In this document: in pieces, positions 6,658 to 60,254 of the stretch
Numbering within the stretch: the first letter of the stretch is position 1
How the letters are laid out: each line of letters starts with the position of its first letter
DNA from: Petrosia ficiformis
Lineage: Eukaryota; Porifera; Demospongiae; Haplosclerida; Petrosiidae
Reading direction: 5' to 3'
NCBI GenBank assembly: GCA_947044365.1
Contig: OX345637.1
Location: 3,582,501 to 3,646,500, forward strand
DNA length: 64,000 bases
Notes under the pieces: model-generated
The model's input: the letters and a program-made list of their open reading frames with translations, nothing else
Database searches by the model: none
Told to the model about the DNA's origin: nothing
Position numbers and translations under genes: made by a program

Positions 6658-7226
6658 ATCGCTCTGTAAACTACACACATTTTTTCATATTTGATTATAA
6701 TTATTGTCCTCTTGTTTTTGATTCTCCTTTTTTCCATAATAATATATCATATAATTATAGCTATAATACTCATTAGCACAATGGTAAAATATCATACATT
6801 ATTTAGATAATGGATGTTCTTTGTATTGTCACATGATAAAACATGTGACAGTGTCTTGACTATCATGAATTTTCAATTGCAATCACCTGTTATGTCGCAC
6901 AATTGAAACCATAGTAAAACTTATTATAAATACCGAGCAGAGTCTAGTCCCAAAAAATCTGCATTGGAAAGGTTGAGCTCTATAGTAACTGAAATTAATA
7001 TATGCTTCTGGAACTATAGGCCTTTTTACCAAGAAAAGAGTTGATTGTCAGCCATCATATTTACTGCGTTTAGAGGCCGATGGAAGCTACACAGTCATAG
7101 ACGGGGCGCGGGCATTCAGCCCCCACTGCACTCCACCCCTTTCACTTTCTACGTACGTAACACATCACATGATGCTGCTCAGCCTTTGAGCCCTTATTAA
7201 ACGAAAACAGATTAGTGCAGCTCTCA
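6658..7226 (+). other. Upstream region of lectin copy 1
   Basis: No coding region seen. The DNA just before the 7227 start is unrelated to the upstream DNA shared by copies 2 and 3, so copy 1 has its own promoter. A more GC-rich patch lies at about 7075-7145 (gacggggcgcgggcattcag). No clear TATA box is recognised. Confidence 0.5.
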
Positions 7227-7787
7227 ATGGCTTACCCTCCTCCTGCTCCGGGTTATGGATACCAGCAACCTCCTTTTGCTGGTTATCAACCCCCGCCACA
7301 AGGTGGGCCAGTTGTACGTGCCAAACGGTATTATTATTACCTTACAAGCTGTTTGAATGGACTCGTCATTAGTGTCCCAGAAGGAAGCACAGAACCAACT
7401 AGAGTGTGTACTGCTCCAAAAAACCCAGTGAAAAATGCAAATAATCAGCTGTGGTTTCTTGATGATGCAGGTGAAGGTTATTATTACATTGTATCAAAGC
7501 TTAAACCTGATGATACCCTGGTTCTTGACATCGAAGGAAGAAGCACTGAGAATGATGCACGTGTCAAGACATCACATCGTAAACCAGACCATAAACCAAG
7601 ACAAGATCGTGCTAATCAGATGTGGAGGGTTGATCCTGATGGAACTATTGTATCTGCATTGCATGGAAAAGTAATGGATGTCAAAGGTCGAAATACTGCT
7701 CCTGGTACTCCTATAGTCATGTTTGGGAAGAAAGCAGCACATGATCGTCCCCAAAATCAACAATGGAGGCTTGAACCAGCTCAGTGA
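7227..7787 (+). CDS. Small ricin B-type (beta-trefoil) lectin-like protein, copy 1
   Basis: Single-exon frame of 186 aa from the ATG at 7227. An ATG 12 bases upstream (7215) is in frame, but 7227 matches the MAYP start of the paralogues. Residues 1-30 are a Pro/Gly/Tyr/Gln-rich tail (PGYGYQQPPF). Residues about 35-186 form a trefoil with three QxW-type motifs: NNQLWFLDD, ANQMWRVDPDG and NQQWRLEP. LVLDIEGRST and VMDVKGRNTAPGTPI are the typical strand motifs preceding a QxW. There is no signal peptide or membrane segment, so the product is probably cytosolic or non-classically secreted. Carbohydrate binding is the usual family role, but no sugar-contact residues can be assigned with certainty. 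From about residue 11 onward the DNA is nearly identical to copy 2, which points to very recent duplication or gene conversion. Confidence 0.85.
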   Translation: MAYPPPAPGYGYQQPPFAGYQPPPQGGPVVRAKRYYYYLTSCLNGLVISVPEGSTEPTRVCTAPKNPVKNANNQLWFLDDAGEGYYYIVSKLKPDDTLVLDIEGRSTENDARVKTSHRKPDHKPRQDRANQMWRVDPDGTIVSALHGKVMDVKGRNTAPGTPIVMFGKKAAHDRPQNQQWRLEPAQ

Positions 7788-7935
7788 AGTTTAAAAATTT
7801 GAGCTGTTAGAACTACAATAATTATATATATATTAATTATTTGTTATTACAGGTTGTTTTTTTTTTGGCTGATTTCTTTATGAAAATTATTATACATGGT
7901 GTAGGAGCAGGCCCCCAGTTTTTATTACTTTTGTT

Positions 7936-8329
7936 TATAAAAGAGGGAGGGGCTGGCTACGCGAGATAGTATGAGAAAGTCAGCCATGATTACTGAATGC
8001 TGGACACCAGAAAGCAATCATATCTTTCTCGTGTATTTTGTTTTCATGTATGAGTTGTATTCTCTTAGCGAAGGGTGTAGCTCGATTAGTGTTAGTGTGT
8101 TAATAATAATAATTATTTATTAATTTTATTTTATTAATTAATTAAATACCTAGAGTAGATGTTCATAAGTCCCGTCCCCCAAAGTAGATGGACTGTTAGC
8201 TACTAGTAGTAAGCGTAATTACACCAAGTCTGTGTTCTCGGCTGAAAAACGTCATATCCTATTAGGAGGGGCCTAACTAGTTGCCCCAGTCCCTGTGCTG
8301 TCCCACCAAGTACTTCAGCTCGCTTTCAG
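7936..8329 (+). promoter_or_regulatory. Candidate promoter and 5' UTR of lectin copy 2
   Basis: TATAAAAG lies at 7936-7943, about 390 bp before the ATG. The ATG at 8330 is preceded directly by a strong splice acceptor (cgctttcag). A donor-like gtaagc is at 8209. Together these suggest a 5' UTR intron (8209-8329) ending at the start codon. The same arrangement occurs before copy 3 (TATAAAAG at 9049, gtaagc at 9336, acceptor ending at 9464). This is inference from motif positions. Confidence 0.45.
7960..8036. repeat. Interspersed element (AGTCAGCCATGATTACTGAA family)
   Basis: The segment around agtcagccatgattactgaa, followed by tgctggacacca and aaagcaatcat, recurs in the duplicated spacer at about 9080-9150 and at 14005-14080. 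Its outer part (aagcaatcatagggatac) recurs alone at about 16388, 39257, 54915 and 59172. It is a short transposon-like repeat carried along with the lectin duplication. Confidence 0.6.
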
Positions 8330-8899
8330 ATGGCTTACCCAGGTTATCAACCTCCTCCTCCAGGTTATGGATACCAGCAACCTCCTGTTGCTGGTTATCA
8401 ACCCCCGCCACAAGGTGGGCCAGTTGTACGTGCCAAACGGTATTATTATTACCTTACAAGCTGTTTGAATGGACTCGTCATTAGTGTCCCAGAAGGAAGC
8501 ACAGAACCAACTAGAGTGTGTACTGCTCCAAAAAAACCAGTGAAAAATGCAAATAATCAGCTGTGGTTTCTTGATGATGCAGGTGAAGGTTATTATTACA
8601 TTGTATCAAAGCTTAAACCTGATGATACCCTGGTTCTTGACATCGAAGGAAGAAGCACTGAGAATGATGCACGTGTCAAGACATCACATCGTAAACCAGA
8701 CCATAAACCAAGACAAGATCGTGCTAATCAGATGTGGAGGGTTGATCCTGATGGAACTATTGTATCTGCATTGCATGGAAAAGTAATGGATGTCAAAGGT
8801 CGAAATACTGCTCCTGGTACTCCTATAGTCATGTTTGGGAAGAAAGCAGCACATGATCGTCCCCAAAATCAACAATGGAGGCTTGAACCAGCTCAGTGA
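8330..8899 (+). CDS. Small ricin B-type (beta-trefoil) lectin-like protein, copy 2
   Basis: Single-exon frame of 189 aa, and the best representative of the cluster. Residues 1-30 are MAYPGYQPPPPGYGYQQPP followed by another PPP block, a flexible Pro/Tyr-rich tail. Residues about 37-189 are the beta-trefoil, with QLW, QMW and QQW marking the three subdomains. Compared with copy 1 it differs in the N-terminal repeat, in one adjacent residue (Val for Phe) and in one Lys/Asn codon. The C-terminal domain is otherwise the same. No transmembrane segment or signal peptide is present. It sits in a tandem unit of about 1.1 kb that includes the 3' flank and the next promoter, so this copy and copy 3 share regulatory DNA. 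Confidence 0.85.
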   Translation: MAYPGYQPPPPGYGYQQPPVAGYQPPPQGGPVVRAKRYYYYLTSCLNGLVISVPEGSTEPTRVCTAPKKPVKNANNQLWFLDDAGEGYYYIVSKLKPDDTLVLDIEGRSTENDARVKTSHRKPDHKPRQDRANQMWRVDPDGTIVSALHGKVMDVKGRNTAPGTPIVMFGKKAAHDRPQNQQWRLEPAQ

Positions 8900-9464
8900 A
8901 GTTTAAAAATTTGAGCTGTTAGAACTACAATAATTATATATATATTAATTATTTGTTATTACAGGTTGTTTTTTTTTTTGGCTGATTTCTTTATGAAAAT
9001 TATTATACATGGTGTAGGAGCAGGCCCCCAGTTTTTATTACTTTTGTTTATAAAAGAGGGAGGGGCTGGCTACGCGAGATAGTATGAGAAAGTCAGCCAT
9101 GATTACTGAATGCTGGACACCAGAAAGCAATCATATCTTTCTCGTGTATTTTGTTTTCATGTATGAGTTGTATTCTCTTAGCGAAGGGTGTAGCTCGATT
9201 AGTGTTAGTGTGTTAATAATAATTATTATTAATTTTTATTAATTTTATTTTATTAATTAATTAAATACCTATCAAATTAGAGTAGATGTTCATAAGTCCC
9301 GTCCCCCAAAGTAGATGGACTGTTAGCTACTAGTAGTAAGCGTAATTACACCAAGTCTGTGTTCTCGGCTGAAAAACGTCATATCCTATTAGGAGGGGCC
9401 TAACTAGTTGCCCCAGTCCCTGTGCTGTCCCACCGCGCCCTTGAGTACTTCAGCTCGCTTTCAG

Positions 9465-10036
9465 ATGGCTTACCCAGGTTATCAACCTCCTCCTCCAGGT
9501 TATGGATACCAGCAACCTCCTGTTGCTGGTTATCAACCCCCGCCACAAGGTGGGCCAGTTGTACGTGCCAAACGGTATTATTATTACCTTACAAGCTGTT
9601 TGAATGGACTCGTCATTAGTGTCCCAGAAGGAAGCACAGAACCAACTAGAGTGTGTACTGCTCCAAAAAAAAACCTGTGAAAAATGCAAATAATCAGCTG
9701 TGGTTTCTTGATGATGCAGGTGAAGGTTATTATTACATTGTATCAAAGCTTAAACCTGATGATACCCTGGTTCTTGACATCGAAGGAAGAAGCACTGAGA
9801 ATGATGCACGTGTCAAGACATACCATCGTAAACCAGACCATAAACCAAGACAAGATCGTGCTAATCAGATGTGGAGGGTTGATCCTGATGGAACTATTGT
9901 ATCTGCATTGCATGGAAAAGTAATGGATGTCAAAGGTCGAAATACTGCTCCTGGTACTCCTATAATTATGTATGTCAAGAAAAAACCACATCAAAATCCC
10001 CAAAATCAACAATGGAGGCTTGAACCAGCCCAGTGA
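9465..10036 (+). pseudogene. Ricin B-type lectin-like gene copy 3, frameshifted
   Basis: The start and Pro-rich tail match copy 2. After CTAPK the run of A at about 9666-9674 is nine long, where copy 2 has seven. The resulting 2-nt insertion puts a stop at 9678-9680, within four codons. The rest of the lectin is intact in another frame (about 9665-10036, ending QQWRLEPAQ). The downstream half has its own differences: TYHRK for TSHRK, and IIMYVKKKPHQNP where copy 2 has IVMFGKKAAHDRP. Either a real disabling slip in a homopolymer or an assembly or sequencing error could explain it, since the remaining frame shows no other damage. Its 3' flank also differs from that of copies 1 and 2, marking the end of the tandem array. 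Confidence 0.75.
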
Positions 10037-10804: not shown

Positions 10805-12904
10805 TTAGTCAATAGATAGATCGGGAAACATCTGCACTCGATACTTATACTGTATTTCGTATTTTACCCACGTCTCTGGCTTTTCTCCTTCAACATGAAA
10901 ACCTTTAACTGAAATTCCTGTGGAGGATCCTGGCACTGCATATGTAACTACTGCTTGTTCATTTTGCATGTCGGGCTTTTGCATTCCAGATTTAAGCTGA
11001 ATTTCACATGTAAATGTATGAGGCTGTGATGTGTTACTATACGAACCAAGTCTCCACATGATAGCCTGATGTTCTGGTTCATACTTTGCACTACCAAGAT
11101 GGGTTTCGATTTGGCACTCATTTGTTTTTATCTTACGCCGAAAACTTCCACGCAGAGCTGCAGTTGATCCAATTGTACGCTTCTGACCAAATTTACTTTC
11201 AGTTAAAAAGAGACTACTCCATGAGGACGGAATTGGGAATTTTATAGTGAAATTTGTGATTGGTCGTTGTTGAAGATTGTGTTTCTTTCGGACGATAAAG
11301 GATGATGTGATTCTTACATTATGTTGAGTCTGGTTATATTCCATAAGGCATGAAACATTGATTGGTGGTGATACATAAGGATCAATTGAGCATCGGAACA
11401 ACTCGAATGTTGACCCATCGATAGGTTGGAATTTTAGCTCTCTGGATGTACGATACAGGTCGGCATTGACACATGGATGGAGCACAGTATCACGAAGACG
11501 AACTTGCCTTGTCATGCTCTGTGAAAGTAGACTCTTTCCTTGAAGCAAAGTAGCTTCTACATCATTTAATACAATCGTACACTCTGGCGCAGCTGTAAGG
11601 AATGCCTGTATATAAACACGATTTAGAGATTTTCGGTCCAAAACAGCACCGTCACAGTTCATCAAAATGTCTGAATATTCCTTAACATCAACAAAAACCT
11701 CATTACTACGATAAGCTACACCTTTCATTCTAATTACAGGAAGTTGACGTACAGCTTCATTGATAGCTTCTGAGATATTTTGTATTAAGCCAAGATCATG
11801 TGATCCAAGTTTCAGTAAAGTGCTAGACGAAGTAATGTGTTCCCTAAGAAGAAATCTTTTAAATGTACGCCTTTCTCGAGCAACTGTCTTTTGAAGTTTT
11901 ATCTGGTGTAATTTCGTTTGACGGTCATAAGATCGTGGAACTGGGCCTGTTACAGTATGATCAAGCTGTAAAATAATATCTTCTACTACAGATGGAGCAT
12001 ACTCAATCTTTTTTCCTCTACCAGATGGAGGAATTGCACCTTTCTTTACTGACAGTACACCATCTTTTACAGTGACTTTAACAGGCAGCCATTTTGTTTT
12101 GGTTCCTGGAATTCGCTTATTTAACTTTAAAAAAATATCCCATTGGCGATCGATTTTAAACTTGCGTGTGAGTTCATCTTCATTAGAAAATCTCTGTTGA
12201 AGCTCTCGATCAAGACTAGTGTTACTAAGTCGTCTTTGTCGAAGGGAATCAACAATTCGTACCGCGCGATGAGTATCAGCTCTCATGCTTTGAGTCCTAC
12301 GAAATGGTAATGATTCTGAATCAGTTGGTTGCGACGTAAATTTATTATTATTTAATGTGTCATTAAGTGCTGTCCATTCGGACTGATTCGTCTCTGTATC
12401 GATACCATACCTCTGAACATCCTCTAGATCACCATTGCTATCAATCTTATGTTGTTTTGCAGTATGTTGATTTGTCACTGGATCATCATCAAAACTCTCC
12501 CATTTCTTTTCTCTCACTTCTTTTGATTTCATTGGCTCGTCAAGCAAATTGGGAAGTGATTGACACTCAAGATCATAGCCATTGTGCTCGATTTCATTGG
12601 GTGGAGTCTCAGATCTGTCGGGCTCTAATTCAAAGTGTTCCCAGTTTTCGGTTTCAACTTCTATGTCAATCCCTCCTACTGCTCCATCTAAATTAATATT
12701 ACCCGTACTGGAATTGGAATTAGTGTGATTAGTGTGAATCGGAGAGTCAGTGTTTGAGAAATCATCAGAGAAACGATTAGGTTTTTTTTGAGGAGATGAG
12801 TCACGACTGGGTGTGTCAACAAAACTGTCACGAAATCCCTGGTCACTGTCAGTACCAGACGTGTGTCTGGTAACTTCCATAGTTGTAGTAAGTTCTACTG
12901 CCAT
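10805..12904 (-). CDS. Stonin-family endocytic adaptor (stonin homology plus mu-homology domain)
   Basis: A single uninterrupted frame of 699 aa on the minus strand. Residues 1-230 are acidic, Ser/Asn-rich and disordered. They contain WEHFELEPD, WESFDDDP and EWTALND, acidic Trp motifs like the WVxF-type AP-2 ear-binding motifs of stonin 2. Residues about 245-390 look like the stonin homology domain (QWDIFLKLNKRIPGTKTKW, KWLPVKVTVKDGVLSVKKG). Residues about 390-695 are the mu-homology domain (RMKGVAYRSNEVFVDVKEYS, then PITNFTIKFPIPSSW, KYEPEHQAIMWRLGSY, and a C-terminal KYRVQMFPDL). Stonins link synaptotagmin-type cargo to AP-2 in clathrin-mediated endocytosis. The whole CDS lacks introns while all other large genes here are intron-rich, so it may be retro-derived or simply have a UTR intron upstream. 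The ATG at 12904 is the first in frame. Confidence 0.88.
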   Translation of the reverse strand: MAVELTTTMEVTRHTSGTDSDQGFRDSFVDTPSRDSSPQKKPNRFSDDFSNTDSPIHTNHTNSNSSTGNINLDGAVGGIDIEVETENWEHFELEPDRSETPPNEIEHNGYDLECQSLPNLLDEPMKSKEVREKKWESFDDDPVTNQHTAKQHKIDSNGDLEDVQRYGIDTETNQSEWTALNDTLNNNKFTSQPTDSESLPFRRTQSMRADTHRAVRIVDSLRQRRLSNTSLDRELQQRFSNEDELTRKFKIDRQWDIFLKLNKRIPGTKTKWLPVKVTVKDGVLSVKKGAIPPSGRGKKIEYAPSVVEDIILQLDHTVTGPVPRSYDRQTKLHQIKLQKTVARERRTFKRFLLREHITSSSTLLKLGSHDLGLIQNISEAINEAVRQLPVIRMKGVAYRSNEVFVDVKEYSDILMNCDGAVLDRKSLNRVYIQAFLTAAPECTIVLNDVEATLLQGKSLLSQSMTRQVRLRDTVLHPCVNADLYRTSRELKFQPIDGSTFELFRCSIDPYVSPPINVSCLMEYNQTQHNVRITSSFIVRKKHNLQQRPITNFTIKFPIPSSWSSLFLTESKFGQKRTIGSTAALRGSFRRKIKTNECQIETHLGSAKYEPEHQAIMWRLGSYSNTSQPHTFTCEIQLKSGMQKPDMQNEQAVVTYAVPGSSTGISVKGFHVEGEKPETWVKYEIQYKYRVQMFPDLSID

Positions 12905-13432
12905 TGTCTATATCTGTATAAAAATAAACAAAATCATAATTACAAATAGTAATCTAATAAAGGTACTTCATGATGTATCGCTTCATTTCATTGTAACATG
13001 ATCAAAATGATTAAGCCAGCTTCATTATTAATTCACTACATAACTTTGTACTGTGCCTACATATTATGTTTCAAACCATTATATCCAGTAAATTCCATAT
13101 AGATTATGGATATCTCTAATGATGAAAGTGGATTCTATGCTTCTTTTGAAAGGATTGAAACCCTCAAGAACCAATAGTAAAACAGACAATTACCATTATC
13201 AATTTAGAAAAAAATCAACTGATGTTAGGGCTTAATTCATCCACGATTTACAGACAGACTGTACAGCGTTAGATCCATTTTGTATGCTGAAAAAGAGCCA
13301 CCATTTTAAAAAGGAAGAAAAATAAAGCATTCTAGGAACAACATGGTATATGGGAATTCTTAGTTACATGCACTTTGACACTGGAAATACTTGCACCTGT
13401 ACATGTAGTACATGGTTCATAGGAAATATGTG

Positions 13433-25507: not shown

Positions 25508-26620
25508 ATGAAGAACAGTTCTTCATATAATCGTTCATTGCTAATCATATTCGAGCTGTTTCTTATACTACTCACTTTACCTAATCAGAGTTCTGCCAAC
25601 TGTACTGTCTTTCGTGAACACAAATGTATATGCTTTGAACATTCCATAGACTGTATTGCATCGAGCTCAATACCTTTTGATGAGTTTCCATTGACTGGTG
25701 GAGTATTTCCTAATGTTGGGACTCTGTGAGTTGTAATGTGTTCTAAACTAAACAAGTGTTTGTTTTGCATGTCTTCCTCTGCAAGCAATTTCATTCTAGA
25801 TAATTGATGAGCTTTCATTTTTATTTACAGTTGTTGTTTATATATAGCTGTGGTTGCAAACCAATCATTCTGAGTTTCTTGACACACAAACTAAACCAAT
25901 CCTAGAAATTATAGCTATGATTCCATGCTTAATATGCAACTAGATTGTCACAGAGAGAACTGCAATCCGTTTTAAATATTCAGACACATAACTATTATTA
26001 TGCATGTTTTCATGTTACTATAACATTCTGGAGTTATAAAATGTCACATTTTCATTGTCTACCTTCATAAATATTCTCTCTCAATAATGACCAGACTACT
26101 GCTGCATGTACATGTGTTATATATTCTCGCTAATGACAAAACTACTGCTACATGTACGTGCACATGTACATAATCATTTCATAAATAAGTGGTATTTTGC
26201 TAAAGAGACCTGAATGATTGAGTAACATTTTATTTGTTTTCGCCGATCAATGATAATTTTATTAACCAAATGTTTGTCTACTAATTATGGTATATAATAA
26301 TTTTTAGAATACTAAAATAACAAAATTTAGCAAAAAGATATAAAGTAATGTCTCCTTGCTCATTCGTCTGAAGATTATATCTGGTGAAGACCATGTAGAC
26401 ATAAGTTTGTGTGTACATTGTCATGGTAGCTCAGTAATACTATTATTTGTGTGCCTGTAGTTTATATAAATGATTTGTTATCACAGTGAGATTATGGCAT
26501 GTTCAACACTGCTTGACAGCCCAAGTCAACAGTCTATCAAATATAGAATCAAACAACTATATTAGTACATCTTTGCCATAAATAATTATAACATATTTCC
26601 ATGTAGGTCTTAATTGCCTT

Positions 26621-26669
<49 letters not shown>

Positions 26670-29600
26670 TATTCATTTTTATCAATGTTCATATGATATA
26701 ATTGTTGCTTTTATTTTCCATAGTGTTATTGAGAACGGCAGATTCACTATCATTAATTCATCACATCTGGCACAGTTTCCTGCATTAACAACATTGTGAG
26801 TATTAAATGTTTTCTGATAATAATACATGTAGATAATGGATCTTATACTGCTGATATTCAACCAATCATTAGTCGCATTGCTTATGTAATTAATAGCCCA
26901 TTGGCTTACATTCTAGTGAAATCATTAGTAGCTATTGTACATGTAGCTGATCGATTTCAGTAGGTCATTGATATGATCCTACATGTACTTGCAAGAGTCA
27001 TATTTTATAGAGCTTATGTTTTATGAAGTGTGGTCATTAATATGATCCTACTTACATTCTGCTTGAGTAATAAAAAGCAGTGCCAAATAACTGTGATTGT
27101 AAACAGAACATGCCCTGTTATTTTTTAATTAATATTTACTGTAAGGCTAGGTTAACGCAAACCCTTGCATTGTGTCTGTAGCATTGTGATAAAATTCTGA
27201 AAACCGATTGGTCAAACACAATGCAGCTGATGCAAAGATGGAATCAGATCCTATCCTTGCATTACATAGCATCTGATGACGTTGAAGGAAGCGTATCATG
27301 CTTACAATACATTGACACACACACAAAGAAATGCAAGGCTTTGTGTCAATATATGAACCAGTCTTTAATGAAGGCCATCATGACTTAAAGTATACCCAAA
27401 CATATAAATAGTTAAATACTTTTTCACAGAGAAATCGTACATGGCAGCTTGGAAATGATAACTGAAGATGCTTTGCTTCAACTTCCAAATATCAAAACTA
27501 TGTAAGTCTATAGTCAGTTTCTCATATTATGCAATGGAGATTATTAAATTGTTAAAGTAGATTCTTGTTGAGTTTAAACTGAACTTATTATAAATTCGTG
27601 ACTTAAAGGAATGTTCATGTGCCAGTATCAGGGGTGTGAATACACTGCCAGACATTTTGGCCTATTTTCATCTCTCTTGTCCTGCTCCCCTCAGTTTCAA
27701 TTTACCGGACATTCACTAGATTTATTGGACAATGTCCTGCATGACTGGCTGTTTCCACATCACTATCCAGTACTGGTCCAATCAACATGATGACCACACT
27801 GTATACATAGAAAAAGTGGTAATTGTCCTATGCATATGTACAAGATACATTTTCCATAGTAATTTTGTCATGAATTTATAATGAGCTAGGTCAACTCTAC
27901 TTCAGTACATGGATGTTGTAAAATCTTGATGTGAGCTTTAATGTGTGGTTCTCTGTTATTCAGCTAACTTAAAAATTAATTTTGAAGCTAAATAACAATT
28001 GTATCACATGTCAATATTAACCCTTTCTTGCATTTCATGTAAACCGATTACATAAAAAATGAATTCAGAATTATAGGTATCAGTTTTCTGATTGGTATCG
28101 TGTTTATTATTTGATATGTATAAATAGAAATTACAACATCTGTAGCACTAGAACTTTGTAAACATGTAGTCAGTAGAGACACATATTTTACATAGTTGGT
28201 GTTTATCAAAGTGTAGCCATTAATATTATCCTACTTACATTTCTGCCTGCGTAAGGACCAGTATCAAATAACTATGATAGTCATTCAAGCATCCATTGTG
28301 AATGCTTTTATGTATTGTATTATATTGTGTTACTCCATTATTATCTTTCTCTATCAGTCAACTTGATCATAACAGACTCACCACATTTCCAACTATTGCT
28401 TCTCTCCAGCTACTTACTAGAGTGTGAGTTAATTCTGTGTGGTTGTATATCCAAAATGCATTCATACTATAGGACACCAGCTTGTATATATAAAAGCAAT
28501 TCATAATTTCATGTACTGTAATTAATGAATGCACTCGCAGTGCAGAACCCTCGCCACAAGTGTGATTTGGGAAACAAGAATGATTCAATAATGACAAGAA
28601 AATAACTGCAGACAATATTTGACTATTATTACAATTATTATACTTTACACTCCAAGTCCTACCAAGAGTACATAATTGTGTCTGCAACTTGTGAAAACGT
28701 ACTGAAATTAATTAATCACCTCTATCACGTGTTTAGTACGGGCATGCACGTATAACGTATGTGCGCGCCCATAATTGTAGGTGGAGCTAGTTAGGAAGCT
28801 ATCTTGCATCAATGGATGTAGTATCCACTACCTCGATTGTTTTGGTGGTTTGAAGGGTTTCTTGGCTAGCGACAGTCATGAAACAGGATCACTTGTGTTT
28901 GTGTGTCCATATTTACTCATGTTATTGCCCTCGTTTCATCTTAAAGTAGTGAAACGGTAACTGTGAGTTATAAAAATTGTCATAACTTTAGAACCAAAAG
29001 GTTTTAGAAGAATTCCTACGTTATTTTTTTTCCTTGTATAATTTGAAGTCTACTAGTACCCCGTTTGAAATGTCAATGTTTTTATTTTTCCAGAAAAAAT
29101 GCTAACAGACACACAGACAGACAAAACGATTACCGTACCCTTCCACCTACGCTACACGGCGAGGGTAAATATACATAGTATTATTATTGATTAAATTCCT
29201 GAATTGTTGCTCCATTGAGTCTAAGCTCAATCATAGGGTCTAGCAGTTGATACAGTTCAGTTAATTATATAGTAATCTACCCACCTTCCCAACAAGCCAG
29301 CCATGTGTGGCTCAATTGTCAAGTGATTATATCATTGTATGTTCCTCTTTGTAAAAAAATTCATTGACTAATTCCTGGAGATAGGTATATTCATTGTTAA
29401 TTAATATTAAAGGTCATTCACTTTCACCTCAACAAAAATGTCCATAACTTTGACTTGAACTATATTATGTGTCATCGCATCCTAATTTTGAGGTCATTGT
29501 GAATGTGAACTGGTCCATGTCAATTAACCCCAAGAACATAGTATAATTATCATTATTATAATAATTATTATATCTCTTTCTTTAGTGAAGTTCAAAATAA

Positions 29601-32600
29601 TAGAATTAAGTCCATAGAATATGAACAGGTGAAAGGATGTTTCGAACTAGTAGAGATGTGAGTATAGGTTTAATTTTATAAACTCAGGAATTAATAATTA
29701 ACTAGTGGAAGTAACTATCAATGTATTAATCATTGTTTGTATTTGTTTGTAGCAATCTTAATAACAATCAACTGAAAGTCTTAACAAATCGTACCTTTCG
29801 AGACTCTTGCAAGCTAAATGAAATGTAAGCTATAACACAAACATGTGTAATTGTGTATGTATGGAACTATGTATTTAGTACACATTATGTATGTATGTGT
29901 GTGTGTATGTATGTGTGTGTGTATGTATGTAAGTATGTGTGTATATGTGTATGTATGTATGTATGTGTGTATGTATGTAAGTATGTATATATATGTGTAT
30001 GTATGTGTGTATGTATGTAAGTATGTATGTATATGTGTACATGTATGTATGTATGTATGTATATGTGTATGTGTGTATGTATGTGTGTATCTGTGTAAGT
30101 ATGTATATATATGTGTATGTATGTATGTATGTGTGTATGTATGTAAGTATGTATGTATATGTGTATGTATGTATGTATGTGTGTGTCTATGTAAGTGTAT
30201 ATAAATATGCGTATGTGTGTGTGTCTGTTTACAGGTACATGTATGTATATAACTATGTATAAATACTTAAATACATCATGTATCTAAATAATATGATAAT
30301 ATCAATGGACTGTAATGTGTATGTGTGTTTGTGTATGGCAGATGACATACCTACGAAAGAGATAACACCGTACCTTTCTTAAATTGAAATTCTTAAGCAA
30401 TTCACAAATTATAAAGAAAGATGAGAGCTTAGCCATTGTGTTTACTTAGTTCAGTAACATCTATAAACTCCTATGAGACAATCTAAGTATGTATACATAC
30501 ATGCAATATTTAATTTTAGGATTGCATTTGATATGTAGACATATATTATGGTATGTATGGTATGTATGGTATGATCATGAATATGTTTATAATACACATT
30601 GTGTAGTGTTTACTTTACTGTATATATGTACATGTGTATTTGTATGAATATATTTGATGCTGTTTATAGTGATAATGCAGTGTTCTGCCCATATGTTTAG
30701 AGTAGAGATTGGATTCTAACTGGCATTTAGTGCAGTTTATCCAGTATATACTTAATTCTGTCTCAGTAGCCTATATATGTATTATCTGAGAGGTGGTTAA
30801 CTTGTGCTGAGAGGTGGTTAATTCATGCTGAGTGGTGGTTATTCCCAACCAGTGCCAACACAGAACAATGGATAATGTAAATCTGCAGCATGATTTTATA
30901 AATAAGTTTTATTTGCAGATTTCTGCTAGCCATTGGCTTTCTCAAATATTTAAAATGAATATCCGACCATTTTGAGCATATAGGCATTACATAGCTGATC
31001 AAAATTCAGCAATTTGTGAGACTATTTATTGATCTGATCTGTGTATTAAAATTGTTATTGTAATTACAAGTGTGTTATTATCTGTCTACTTTAAATATTA
31101 TTTTAGTAATGCGTCTCGTAATGAAGAGCTACGACTCATTGAAGATGATTTTTTTGTTGGATTGAACATTAGAACTTTGTAAGTGTATTAATTACATTAT
31201 TATTAAATCATACATACATGTATCATGAATAATAATTTGGATTACTGTAAACTTCAATTAGGTACTGTATGTATAACTATATACTGTATGACCATGTTTA
31301 TCAAAGGCTCATACTGTACAGGAAGCCAATGAAATTGAAAATGGCATGTAAGGGTATAATTCCTTATATAATATAGAAACCCCAGCATACCACTAATATA
31401 GTACCTATACACATACACTCTAGTTACTTTGATTTTCGCTACCTGTAGAAAATGATCAAAAGGCATCTTTTTAATTATATTTGATACCTCAAAATGATTG
31501 AGCATTCATTTAATTAAAGGCACTCAGGTAATTAGCATATTCATGAGTAACCACTTCTAAATACTACAAAACTCTACTTACAGAAGATGTGCTTAGTTAC
31601 TTTTGATAGTCTTGCTGATATATACACACAGAGCTGATGTTATGTTGATAGTATTTCCATTTTGAAGCAATTGTGTGTTGTGTTTTTTAGCTACACAAAG
31701 AGATAACTGATTTGAGGAATCTACCACAGTTATGATATGAAACTTGGTTTATTCTCATCACATATCTGAACTTACTACATAGCAATGATCTCCTTTTTTT
31801 AAAATACAGCTTATAGGATCTCTGAACGAGTATTTCAGTATTTAAAATGTACTATGGCTCAAAAACAAACAGAAAAATCGGACCGTTGCCAAACACTTCA
31901 CTGGTTTAGCTACTGGTTTTAAATGTTTCAGAGCAATAAAGTGTGTGGATAATTAGAACAAGTTACCAAAAATTATACTAGGACAGTAATCAGAAATGTA
32001 TAGCGATTAATAAATATGCTAATTACCCAAGTGCCACTTTAAGTATATAATATCAGGTAGATGTAATCCTGGCAATATCTAAAGATGGAAAATATTTTAT
32101 TTTTTTGCAGGGATTTTTCGTATACAGCAATTTCAAAGTTCCCAACAAATGGTTTGAGGAGGCTTACAGAACTGAATTTATATGGCTGTAAAGATTTAAA
32201 AGTGTTTCCAAATGCAATTGGAAATTACGATCCTGAGCTTTGTACTAATGTAACATTTCCCTTCTTGAAGAAAGTAATGTTTGAATATCACGCTCATTGC
32301 TGTACATATAGCCGTACAAAACCTTTGAAAATCTGTCCTAAAATAGTAAACGGGAAATGCAATGACACAATTATCACGCTTACTGGTTCTATTGGAGTGT
32401 CCAATAATACTGTAAACTATGTTTGTATCAATGCAACTGATGGCACCTCTGTAAGTGGATACACACCAACTGATGGTGAGATTTATACACTCTCCGAACT
32501 ATGCCTTCTTATTCCATATTGTTTTGATAATCGTTGTCATGACAACTGTATAAATGATCCAGGATTTAGTGGATCAGGTGATTTTGTAGGAATGGCTTGT

Positions 32601-35402
32601 ATTGTGGAATCTAATGTATTTCCGACTCCGTCACCTTCCCTCTCATCTTCAGAAACGTTTGTTACATCACTAATAGAAGTATCATCATCATCAAATATAT
32701 TCAGTATACTTCATACTACTATCTGTTGGAGTGGAAGTGTAATTATTTCTTCCACACCAAGCACAATAGTTCAGTCTCCCACACCTACCATTTCTGAATC
32801 ACCAATAAATTATGAAGAATGCCCTACTGTTGAGTGTGCTGATTGTGTAGTTGAGGAATGCATGGATATGTCTTGTAGTGATTATGTTCCTTATTGTGAA
32901 GCTCAAGAGAAGAAAAGAAAGAAGAGGCTAGTTGATGAAATTCTATGCTCTACCATTGACGTGACGTTGACACCGAAAATTAATGTTCTATGTTCCACAA
33001 CTGTACAATTCACAGTTCCTACGCCAACCGTAACCTCAACCTCAAGTTCACCCTCTCCCTCACCAACAGAATGTCCTGAAAGTAACACTGTTTGTCAGGA
33101 CTGTGTAGTAGAAGAGTGCATGGAACCTCATTGTAACGAATTTCAAGTTTATTGTGACAATGAAGACAGGAGAAGAAGAGAAATTACTCTCTGCTCTTCA
33201 CAAGAATATCCTTGTGTGTCTTTTTCATTGGCCTGTCTCTCTCCCTCTCCCTCTACCTCCACCTCATTTACAACTACTACTGCATTCCCAACACAAACTC
33301 CAGAGAGTGAATGCCCAGATGGAGATACTGATTGTCAGGATTGTGTTACAGAAGAATGTGTTCGCAATGAATGTGCCATGTATCAATCAATCTGTGATGC
33401 CCAAAAAAGGAAGAGAAGAAGAAGGAATGAGGAAAGTGATATAGATTCCGCAAAATGTTCTGTGACTGCAATTATAGGAAATTGCATTTCTGAAAATCCT
33501 CCTCAGCCTAGTTCTACTATTACTACCATTAGTAGTATTACTCCAATACCTCCACCCTCCTCTTCTACAGTGGCTCCTCTTGCCTGTACACCAGATATAT
33601 TTCTTTCCAATCCATGTGAAGCGTATGTGGAAGTGGATGAGTATACGGAATGTTCCCCAGGTAATGATCCTTTCAATCCATGTTTTGATATACTTGATGA
33701 TGACATTCTTCGTGGTGCAATATGGATTGTTATACTTATAGCAATAGGAGGCAACTCACTTGTAATTAGTGTTACAATCCTCCATTGGATTTATCGATAT
33801 CGTTCTAGTCGCAAAGAGCCTCATTTATTGTACGTACTTTATCTCAATCTAGCTATGGCCGATCTTTTTATGGGCATATATTTGCTAACAATAGCAGTAG
33901 TGGATGTTGAAACCAAAGGCAGTTACTCTGAAAAAGCTATTGCTTGGCAAACAGGTCATGGATGTCGCTTTGCTGGTTTCTGCGCTATTGTTTCCAGTAT
34001 ATTGTCAGTGTATACTTTATTAGTGATAACCGTTGAGCGTGTTTACTCAATAAAATTCTCGCTTCAAAGAAAGCATTTCAAAAAACATTGGGTATGTTTT
34101 TTCATGATCATTGGCTGGGTTATTGGAATATCACTTGCTGTGTTACCAATGGTTGGTTTGAGTAGCTATGAAAGAGTAAGTATCTGTCTACCCTTTGAAT
34201 CACGTGAAATTGAAGATAAAGCATACATTGCTACTATCCTAGTACTAACTGGTATAGCTTCATTTGTAATTCTATTCAGTTATGTTTATCTATTTTATAT
34301 CGTCGCTTGTGGTACTCGCAAAAAGAATCTGCATGGATCACTTACAGCACGAGAAGAGTTGAAATTAGCTTTACGAATGAGTTTACTTATAGTTACTGAC
34401 TTTATGTGTTGGGGTCCCATTGCCTTCTTTGGCTTAACAGCTGTGTTTGGACAGCCATTGATTGGAATCAAGGCTTCAAAAGTGCTAATAGTTTTCGTGT
34501 TTCCACTTAATTCATGTTTGAATCCAATACTGTATTCATTTTCAACTAGACTTTTCAGACAAAACGTGAAAAATTTATTCGACAAATGTGGGCTGTGTAC
34601 AACTTGCAAACATTATCTCAAGACTCAGCATTCAACTGGATATATTCAGAACTCCACACAGTCAAGAGATGAACCTCACTATCATAGTCGACGAAGGAGT
34701 ACACAAATCAGCGTTATGTCTCGTCTACTCTCAATTAGTTCTTCTTTCGGAGGTGATGGCTCGAGAAGAGGAAGCGCTTTTAGTGGTAGTTCAGAAGAAG
34801 GAAGCAGTATATTCAGATCTAGTACCCCACCCCCTCCAATTGATGGCCTTCCAAACCGTACTTCAAAAGACCGCAGGATCAGTCAGGTTAGTCTATCTGG
34901 TCAATTGAATGTGTTGCCAGAAGAAGATGAGGATACTGTCATTACTAATGAAGATGCAGTAATCTATAATCGAAGCAGAAATGCGTCATCTGATTCTTCT
35001 TTTGATCTCCAGTTAAATTATGTTTCTCATTATATTGGCAATGGTGATTGTAGACATGATGACTATAGTGATGAAAAAGTGCTTCAGTTGGAATCTACTG
35101 TTAACAGAAATGGACTGAAGATTAAACAGACAAATTTGACTGAGGTTGACAACCAATCCAAAGATGGTCGTGAATCTGCTACGAATCCACGGCGACAAAG
35201 TTTACCAACAATCTTAGATGTTCAAGAGAATTATGATGACTTTGAAACTGAAGACAGTAGTAGTCGGCAGAATGTACTTTACAATGCATATACAGGTGAC
35301 GATGAAGACGATGGATTCATTATGAGAATAATCGAAAAGGGAACTATTATTAACCAAAATTCTCAAAACGAAACTCAAGAACAGGAGGTTACCTTCATGT
35401 AA
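25508..35402 (+). CDS. Leucine-rich-repeat GPCR (LGR, glycoprotein-hormone-receptor class) with unusual hinge
   Basis: Eight exons: 25508-25725, 26724-26795, 27430-27501, 28358-28423, 29586-29657, 29753-29824, 31107-31178 and 32111-35402. All internal junctions are phase 2. The joined frame is 3936 nt (1311 aa). Six LRR exons are 66-72 nt, one repeat per exon, as is classic for LGR genes. The start MKNSSSYNRS begins a signal peptide ending at SSA-NC. An LRRNT cysteine cluster follows, then about 8 LRRs. Hinge: EYHAHCCTY matches the LGR HCC motif. Next come three Cys-rich modules (about residues 450-670), then ECSPGNDPFNPCFDIL before TM1. The 7TM domain spans about 749-1028 with GNSLVISV, LNLAMADLFMGIYLL, WQTGHGC, VERVYSI in place of DRY, SSYERVSICLP and NPILYSF. 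The 283-aa Ser-rich tail has many arrestin/kinase-type sites. LRR number suggests type A, but type B cannot be excluded. An upstream ATG at 25451 is in frame. Confidence 0.9.
26618..26668. repeat. (TA)n microsatellite in LGR intron 1
   Basis: About 22 consecutive TA dinucleotides, shortly before the second LGR exon. Confidence 0.95.
27629..27765 (-). mobile_element. hAT-like MITE (CAGGGGTGTGGAAA family), 137 bp
   Basis: Starts CAGGGGTGTGAAT and ends TTTCCACATCACTA, in the reverse orientation. Flanks gccagtat and tccagtac match at 6 of 8 positions, an aged target duplication. It lies in an intron of the LGR gene. Confidence 0.78.
28535..29168. mobile_element. Possible element bounded by ACCCTCGCC / GGCGAGGGT
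   Basis: The stretch from gcagaaccctcgcc to cggcgagggtaaat has short (9-bp) inverted ends. It is less repetitive and more GC-rich than its surroundings, with gtgcgcgccc near 28760 and ttaccgtacccttccaccta near 29130. It lies in an LGR intron. I see no coding frame. It could be a decayed transposon, but the evidence is weak. Confidence 0.35.
29410..29515. repeat. Interspersed element (AAAGGTCATTCAC family)
   Basis: Blocks aaaggtcattcac, tccataactttga, catcctaattttgaggtcatt and gaatgtgaac are shared with 4562-4770, 41725-41952 and 53043-53375. The two ends (tcattcacattca against tgaatgtgaac) are inverted, which suggests a MITE family. Confidence 0.65.
29885..30215. repeat. (GTAT)n / (GT)n microsatellite
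   Basis: About 330 bp of tgtatgta repeats in an LGR intron. All-Tyr/Val/Cys/Met open frames here are artefacts. Confidence 0.95.
30678..30860. mobile_element. Repeat with inverted GCAGTGTTCTGCC-like ends, copy 1
   Basis: Starts gcagtgttctgcccatatg and contains the same taattctgtctcagtagcct and gaggtggttaa tandem block as the copy at 47467. Lies in the LGR gene intron before exon 7. Confidence 0.65.
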
Positions 35403-37730
35403 TATATTTTCAGGTAAATTAAAATTGCTAATTGTAGGTGTATAGACTAATTTTGAGGGATTGCAGCCAATAGAATAGCACAAGTAATCCGAATAGCTGT
35501 AAACCCAAAAAGGGATGTATGATGTTTAAACCACTCACTGCAAAAACAAAATTGTTATAACTATTTTATTGGTTAGAGTTGCAAGGATTTAACAATAATT
35601 ATAATTTTTACTTTCATTTCTTTTTTCAGATCAGTCTGTTTAACTTCGGCAGCTGTAACAGCAAAATAATATTTTTAAAGCATATTTTATCGTGAAAAAT
35701 TTATTTCTTTTATTCAGTACATAGAATTTCTCGATCTATTTATACTTTATTAATTTTATGAACATGTACCTTTATAATAATTATTATTACTCTGAATTCA
35801 ATTTGCTATAAAATAATTCATAAATTGAGAGTTTTTCTGTCTTAGATCCATTGTAATCATCAACTGAAAGTTTAGTGGGAGTATAATGGAATAATTATGT
35901 ATCCTAAATTATCATGTGCATGTTGGCATACATATATACCATATGGAGAGATAAAATGATTACTGGTCTGCCTACACATGCAAGTGGTATATACATGTGT
36001 ATTAGTGTTGGCATACATACCATATGGTCAGATAAAATGATCACTGGTCTGCCTACACATGCAAGTGGTATATACATGTGTACTAGTGTTGGCATACATA
36101 CCAGATAAAATGATCACTGGTCTGCCTACACATGCAAGTGGTATATACATGTGTACTAGTGTTGGCATACATACCATATGGACAGATAAAACGATTACTG
36201 GTCTGCCTACACATGCAAGTGGTATATACATGTGTACTAGTGTTGGCATACATACCATATGGACAGATAAAACGATTACTGGTCTGCCTACACATGCAAG
36301 TGGTATATACATGTACATGTGTATTAGTGTTGGCATACATACCATATGGTCAGACAAAATGATTACTGGTCTGCCTACACATGCAAGTGGTATATACATG
36401 TGTATTAGTGTTGGCATACATACCATATGGTCAGACAAAATGATCACTGGTCCACCTACACATGCGAGTGGTATATACATGTGTACTAGTGTTGGCATAC
36501 ATACCATATGGTCAGACAAAATGATCACTGGTCCACCTACACTTGCAAGTGGTATATACATGTGTACTAGTGTTGGCATACATACCATATGGTCAGACAA
36601 AATGATCACTGGTCTGCCTACACATGCAAGTGGTATATACATGTGTACTAGTGTTGGCATACATACCATATGGTCAGACAAAATGATCACTGGTCCACCT
36701 ACACTTGCAAGTGGTATATACATGTGTACTAGTGTTGGCATACATACCATATGGTCAGACAAAATGATCACTGGTCTGCCTACACATGCAAGTGGTATAT
36801 ACATGTGTACTAGTGTTGGCATACATACCATATGTGTATTAGTGTTTTTTTATGACGACTTTTAGTTATAGTTATGGTATGCCTAGCTAGTTTCTCAAAC
36901 TTACAGTTTAGTTATAGTTTAATTAACATCGGGCTTGGGGTTTTAAGTTCCATTATTGGCCATTTTTAGTTAAACATATGTAGTTATTACAATAGACTTG
37001 TAAGTAATTTAGTTATACTTTAGTTAATTAAGTCAAAATGCTTTACTAAAAGAGTGTTTTAGTTTTAGTTTTAGTTACTTAAAACAAGACTAATGTGTAT
37101 ATACTCTATTGTCAAAAAGGAAATTTTAATTTTTATCTGCTTGAGCTTATATATATATACACAATTGAGTATTTTGTGTTACGAGTTAGCACCTATTATT
37201 ACAATAATTAGAGCTTCCTACAATCCTATATTATATAGTTACACAAACATGCTTTCAAAGTCATTAATTTTACTATTAATATATAATATACACTGGACTA
37301 CCAAGTACTAACTAACTCAAAATATTAAATACAGAAAATGGATTAGAAATTATTGTAATAATAAACAAGGCTTGGGGGCTAGCTCATGTAACAGTGAACT
37401 TATGTACATGAAATTACTCTTGAGATATGTCTCATGTCTCATATGTCTCATATACCTAAACATATTTGGCTGTGTGGGGTGCTGATAGTCTAGAGTATAT
37501 GTAATAAATTAATTATTATTGTGATGACAGACATATTGATGTCACTATGAACATACATACACACTTAAAAAATGCATTGATCTTAGACAAACAAAATCTC
37601 AACAATGAACGTAAAAACATGATCTATAAAAATTAATGTTTGTACATTTAAAATGGAAGGGCACATTATATGTACAGAATTTAGAGTAATATCACTATTC
37701 ATTTCATAATACTGAAAAATTATTTAGTCA
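35403..37730. other. Convergent intergenic region with an 81-bp minisatellite
   Basis: The LGR gene and the RasGRP gene end toward each other here. Apart from the minisatellite, the region holds AT-rich 3' flanks and a tract of tttagttatagtt / actaaaac repeats (about 36855-37090) related to those at 4085-4290 and 59600-60000. No coding exon seen. Confidence 0.65.
35925..36838. repeat. Minisatellite, 81-bp unit, about 11 copies
   Basis: The unit contains accatatggtcagacaaaat, gatcactggtctgcctacac, atgcaagtggtatatacatg and tgtactagtgttggcatac. Units vary at a few linked positions (ggtctgcc or ggtccacc; attactgg or atcactgg), so subfamilies are visible. Because 81 is a multiple of three and the unit lacks stops, 267-aa frames are open on both strands. 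I treat these as artefacts. Confidence 0.95.

Positions 37731-60254
<22,524 letters not shown>

Follow-up and report, generated by a model that had tools for sequence, protein, structure and literature searches.

The locus raises the question of whether a sponge LGR, in whose hinge three cysteine-rich modules are each coupled to a run of basic residues, is cut in this hinge as the TSH receptor (TSHR) is, and what such cutting would leave behind. The gene lies in a stretch of 64,000 nucleotides from Petrosia ficiformis (GenBank assembly GCA_947044365.1, contig OX345637.1, positions 3,582,501 to 3,646,500, forward strand), hereafter the window. Its predicted model is continuous, comprises eight exons on the plus strand (25508-35402) and codes for 1311 amino acids with the sole stop at its end. 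Exon 1 (25508..25725), delimited by its open reading frame and the donor gtgagt, carries the start codon, a start that by eye resembles a signal peptide, and an N-terminal cysteine cap. It is followed by five exons of 72 nt (26724..26795, 27430..27501, 29586..29657, 29753..29824 and 31107..31178, the last with an LRR_8 match) and one of 66 nt (28358..28423), which by reading hold about one LRR apiece (LRR_8, E 1.2e-18); with parts of exon 1 and of the last exon the number of repeats comes to an approximate, uncounted eight, and type A LGRs have about seven to nine. The last exon (32111..35402), placed by open reading frame, Pfam and gene model, contains the final LRR part, the three-module hinge, the 7TM domain, a long cytoplasmic tail and the stop, with modules, 7TM domain and tail all within a single open frame of 1111 codons. 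Residues are numbered from window position 32067, so that residue n begins at 32067+3(n-1), and all features of the gene given below are on the plus strand.

Around the receptor gene, an 81-bp minisatellite of 11.2 copies (35931-36834, 93% match) begins about 530 bases 3' of its stop codon. Further observations in the window are three tandem open reading frames of near-identical lectin-like sequence (7173-10036), the first of which, the only one scanned, matches the ricin-type beta-trefoil PF14200 (E 4.2e-21), a 700-residue open frame on the minus strand (10808-12907) that matches the adaptor-medium-subunit domain PF00928 (E 4.9e-40) and is stonin-like by reading, and a tRNA gene at 52062-52134 (RF00005). 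Promoter-like sites were no commoner than in shuffles and terminator-like sites numbered 2 vs 0.6; both were given no weight, as bacterial models had been used.

By sequence and by fold, the window protein is a type A LGR and thus a relative of the glycoprotein hormone receptors. Its 7TM domain (PF00001, 33774..34535, residues 570-823, E 6.1e-26) has TSHR (E 4.9e-69) and the LH receptor (E 2e-68) among its PDB sequence matches, the best eight of which are TSHR, LHR and FSHR, and in a fold search with an 861-residue model TSHR, FSHR and LHCGR account for all of the first 13 matches. The hinge opens with HCC (32295..32303; nearly invariant in the alignment, with Cys 78 and 79 as presumed anchors) and closes with FNPC, a motif named in PMC8990981, which also describes the six-cysteine hinge of type A LGRs. 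Of these six cysteines, which form three bridges, the positions of HCC, C529 and C539 have clear counterparts and C98 and C507 likely ones; the hinge holds 40 cysteines, and any pairing is presumed. LDLa domains, as found in type C LGRs (relaxin receptor, GRL101), did not appear in Pfam scans of the window protein, and a GAIN/GPS domain, as in adhesion GPCRs, was absent among Pfam matches up to E 1. Type A LGRs are activated by cystine-knot hormones; the families PF00007 and PF03045 of such hormones had no match in the genome, a result that is uninformative since the positive controls were equally silent.

Three tandem modules occupy the middle of the hinge, as the initial annotation had stated. 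They follow a cysteine-rich N-terminal part defined by alignment (C90-C178, 32334..32600), in which C98, C120, C146, C152, C157, C161 and C178 are invariant across ten aligned sequences. Each module has the pattern C-x4-6-C-x2-C-x4-C-x4-C-x6-C, then a basic run, then two to three more cysteines. Module 1 has its six-cysteine core at 32817..32897 (Cys 252, 257, 260, 265, 270, 277), site 1 (KKRKKR) at 32910..32927 and the pair C294 and C309 beyond it (32946..32993; a strand is modelled at 293-301). In module 2 the core lies at 33069..33155 (Cys 336, 343, 346, 351, 356, 363) and site 2 (RRRR) at 33168..33179, followed by C376, C383 and C390 (33192..33236) in a piece with an odd number of cysteines. 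Module 3, also covered by an AlphaFold model, has its core at 33309..33395 (Cys 416, 423, 426, 431, 436, 443), site 3 at 33405..33425 and the pair C464 and C473 at 33456..33485; its basic run is KRKRRRR in full, where only RKRRRR had been read before. The pre-TM1 segment (33585..33683) with C507, C517, C529 and C539 of FNPC, presumed anchors by alignment, completes the hinge. Pairwise scores of the modules (105, 107, 118) roughly double the highest values reached in 500 shuffles each (54, 55, 59), and the stalks between the modules are rich in Pro/Ser/Thr, as had been described. The basic runs had further been placed at the ends of the modules; runs are indeed present, but they are situated inside the cysteine pattern because two to three cysteines come after each of them.

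Both AlphaFold models predict the core as a short and a long helix with a turn between, with pLDDT per ten-residue block of about 70-86 in the cores and about 31-63 past the basic runs; helix 2 continues through the basic residues with falling confidence. These models, built from 32 and 15 sequences, are weak overall (mean pLDDT 64.6 and 67.4, pTM 0.49 and 0.44). No solved structure was matched by the module 3 model in Foldseek, and a module profile found no good match among Pfam and PDB sequences, one weak PDB hit being an LDL receptor repeat (E 0.73). Single modules reached E 0.014-0.21 against Pfam, each family in only one or two of 25 members, and the three-module stretch matched PF25789 (TPR) at E 0.004, below the cut-off of that family. 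The module looks like an undescribed protein domain that so far occurs in these receptors only: none of 2803 candidate proteins of about 140-446 residues was a stand-alone module protein, and the genome contained no copies beyond the three (E up to 10; three candidates scored).

The initial annotation knew of no other LGR with this arrangement. This does not hold, as at least 57 further sequences in the database contain a match to the core when modules are searched against LGRs, among them P0001, which is 99% identical to the window protein and perhaps from the same species. Searching with the hinge retrieved nine proteins, searching with the 7TM part 137, of which 120, including the nine, were listed and used; with the window protein they form a set of 121 sequences. 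Among these matches listed, the core occurs in 58 of 121 LGR sequences, with 91 modules in total and one to three per protein. A tree of 117 rows was calculated; it includes the second LGR of this genome and omits five rows in which the pre-TM1 motif could not be located, among them two that carry modules. All 56 module rows fall into one group of 70 (support 100/98, midpoint root), presumably sponges, while the other 47 rows, including all named arthropod, mollusc and fish proteins, have none; named cnidarians are not represented in the tree (P0117 was dropped). Since 14 rows of the group are without the core pattern and the label requires ten changes, module losses or misses by the pattern must occur. 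By reading, the hinge of the genome's second LGR (L003) is likewise free of modules. In six proteins (P0004, P0005, P0006, P0008, P0009, P0011) modules are 0.74-1.00 alike within the protein and at best 0.50-0.65 alike to others, a clear case of repeat homogenisation, and the unit there has a second cysteine-rich half bearing its own basic run. Concerted evolution is not claimed for Petrosia, where the window modules are 0.33 alike among themselves vs 0.77 against P0002. No description of the modules appeared in the passages of open-access papers that were searched, where the only related remark concerns one sponge receptor with an enlarged hinge.

The coupling of modules and basic runs is conserved throughout these relatives. 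In the listed matches and the window protein, a polybasic run comes no more than 14 residues after 85 of 91 modules, compared with 8.5% when every stretch of 14 residues in these hinges, including the modules, is counted; strict RxKR/RxRR accompanies 68 of 91 vs a background of 5.6%, leaving 23 modules without the strict motif and six without any basic run within 14 residues. The core pattern consists of cysteine spacing only and includes no basic run, therefore the coupling is not built in. In 63 of 85 cases the residue directly past the run is S, N, D, E or A; at site 1 of the window protein it is Leu. Convertases prefer extended sites, whereas helix 2 is modelled through the basic residues, and furin has less liking for Leu after the cut; both points count against cleavage, as do the modules without the strict motif. 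The window protein and P0002 share 18/18 core cysteines and 17/17 basic residues but differ at 20 of 78 other core positions. Regardless of modules, RxKR/RxRR was found between HCC and NPC in 37 of the 46 rows of the clade that have both motifs (73 rows given), where shuffles predict 1.6; the nine hinges without it include P0019 and P0020, which are enlarged and cysteine-rich and do not show the module pattern. Among other non-fish LGRs with both motifs it is present in 16 of 30 hinges (1.1 expected; 34 rows given), the named ones being arthropods and molluscs, with sites that differ in their letters and lie 32-78 residues past HCC in 15 of 16. These motif counts are not independent because the rows are related. 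None of 14 salmonid TSHR hinges, which are near copies of each other, contains the motif. Conserved coupling to the modules supports the earlier reading of the runs as furin-type sites and its comparison with the cleaved TSHR hinge; the cut itself is predicted from these motifs. In the portions available of the LGR1 and thyrostimulin literature surveyed, furin is mentioned nowhere, and in those of a mosquito LGR1 paper receptor fragments are not reported (PMC3896475). As to possible enzymes, convertase P domains are plentiful in the genome, with 32 matches to PF01483, three of which contain stops. Many of them lie in a tandem-looking cluster (C1:54.9-55.2 Mb), perhaps an expansion of subtilisin/kexin-like genes, and the domain is also found on C10.

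If the sites are cut, the cysteines decide what would be released. Three released peptides had been envisaged, which is the wrong number, because only two pieces, of 84 and 82 residues, lie between the basic sites. They span residues 288-371 (window 32928-33179) and 372-453 (33180-33425). In relatives, the cysteines per piece between module-linked basic sites number 8, 10, 12 or 14; outside the Petrosia trio (window protein, P0001, P0002) this number is even in 25 of 25 pieces, or in 20 of 20 when P0003, P0013 and P0040, where no HCC-like motif was found, are left out; extra basic sites inside some pieces were not used in this count. Even numbers would be in keeping with pieces that pair their cysteines internally and are able to leave. 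In the trio the second piece has nine cysteines, and C383 within it and C517 in the pre-TM1 segment occur, among ten aligned rows, in these three only; a disulfide C383-C517, which we predict, would make the count even. The remaining chains could hold together: C78, C79 and C98 on one side and C507, C529 and C539 on the other flank all three sites, these anchor positions are conserved on either side, and they match by position the TSHR pairs C283-C398, C284-C408 and C301-C390. According to the available text of PMC9640187, three cysteine bonds presumably tether the TSHR chains, although the third pair stayed apart in simulation; C98-C507 may correspond to this pair. With cysteines at the tethering places of TSHR conserved on both sides of the sites, shedding of the ectodomain, which had also been proposed, is not the simplest outcome.

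We consider it fairly probable that this gene codes for a sponge type A LGR whose hinge carries tandem cysteine-rich, probably two-helix modules, each followed by a convertase-like site, and which matures to a cleaved two-chain receptor. A furin-type convertase would cut past the sixth cysteine of each module in the secretory path, while hinge disulfides of the kind present in type A LGRs would keep the LRR and 7TM chains together, therefore the mature receptor would be a two-chain protein like TSHR. The pieces of 84 and 82 residues would be excised, the first free and the second possibly held by the lineage-specific bond proposed above. We infer that cutting would shorten and free the linker and thereby tune hormone-driven activation.

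Alternatively, the modules could be folded spacers or partner-binding units of an uncut receptor, with the basic runs as heparin- or polyanion-binding patches, which we regard as rather unlikely. The change of the cores speaks in its favour, since it is expected of binding surfaces under changing selection: cysteines and basic residues left out, cores are less conserved than the remaining ectodomain in 75 of 79 close pairs (7TM identity >=83%), 48 of them with p<0.05, in a protein-level comparison, with pairs that share species and are hence not independent and with unlike copies compared where module numbers differ. Window protein and P0001 keep 55/59 core vs 414/414 other ectodomain residues (p 2.2e-4), all four ectodomain replacements falling into cores, and four of six replacements in all fall within 113 of 1107 residues (p 0.0014); P0003 and P0014 keep 31/58 vs 317/380, P0005 and P0008 26/50 vs 473/507. 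For window protein and P0002 the direction is the same, yet not significant (46/59 vs 334/390, p 0.17), and in P0004-P0006, P0044-P0045 and P0061-P0072 it is opposite or no difference exists. The modules with a non-strict basic run or none also suit an uncut receptor, as does SGxG, which occurs in 21 of 65 hinges of the clade where 4.4 would be expected, and in five of 44 others (3.3 expected); in the window protein it is the SGSG motif at 32568..32579, placed by alignment, and we take such motifs to resemble glycosaminoglycan attachment sites. However, most runs are RxKR/RxRR with a small or acidic next residue at a constant place past the last core cysteine, and this motif is also present in module-free LGR hinges.

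Tandem cysteine-rich units between convertase-like sites also resemble a peptide precursor, so the receptor gene might double as a prohormone whose inter-site pieces are secreted signalling peptides, and both the even cysteine numbers outside the Petrosia trio and a copy number of one to three could be read in this way. It is quite improbable, as among the candidates scored the module was found neither in a stand-alone protein of about 140-446 residues nor in a second gene of the genome, many relatives have a single module and therefore no piece between module sites, and a receptor that would bind such a peptide is not known. Very improbable is that most transcripts lose the segment as an in-frame intron, in which case the working hinge would have about 132 residues, close to the length of 130 in TSHR. 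An intron at 32578-33570, 993 nt and hence a multiple of three, would remove all three modules; its donor CAG|GTGATT, the GT of which lies at 32578 within the SGSG codons, scores 8/9, the best of the segment, and its acceptor before 33571 is among the two best, so a short-hinge isoform is possible. Yet the donor has no G at +5, which all seven donors of the gene model possess, Ser/Pro codons yield pyrimidine tracts by themselves, and even deep branches of the tree have preserved the cysteines and basic runs, for which an intron would have no use.

A cleaved two-chain receptor, the reading preferred here, can be set beside several known systems. The adhesion GPCR Gpr126/ADGRG6 is said to be cleaved by furin at a site in its ectodomain; it belongs to another receptor class, and the window protein has no GPS/GAIN match. 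The sponge receptor CKHR of Ephydatia muelleri is likewise an LGR. One sponge receptor with a significantly enlarged hinge was noted by Roch and Sherwood (2014; PMC4079206), in whose main text furin, cleavage or an insertion are not mentioned. Invertebrate LGR1, the receptors for GPA2/GPB5, share the type A six-cysteine hinge (PMC8990981, available text) and, in the 16 of 30 hinges outside clade and fish, an RxKR/RxRR site, but mostly have six hinge cysteines and no modules by pattern. TSHR resembles the window protein as best PDB match of its 7TM part, in a hinge from HCC to FNPC, and in a cleaved region within this hinge, which in the available text of PMC9640187 comprises 50 residues (316-366, the C peptide) and is called unique to TSHR, and at which a membrane-bound matrix metalloprotease reportedly cuts; it differs in that the module pattern was found in none of the 14 salmonid TSHRs scanned.

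With convertase-like hinge sites in the clade (37/46) and in other non-fish LGRs (16/30), an old origin of hinge processing becomes testable, and judged from these motifs it may be old in type A LGRs. Tentatively, and with considerable doubt, one could go further and suppose that convertase cutting of the hinge was ancestral to type A LGRs, that sponges came to excise tandem, fast-changing modules as disulfide-closed pieces, which may act on other cells, that protostomes have a single RxKR-type site, and that the metalloprotease cleavage of TSHR is a late replacement. The cysteine-rich module, which looks undescribed, varies in copy number between relatives, and its cores show less conservation than the surrounding ectodomain in 75 of 79 close pairs.
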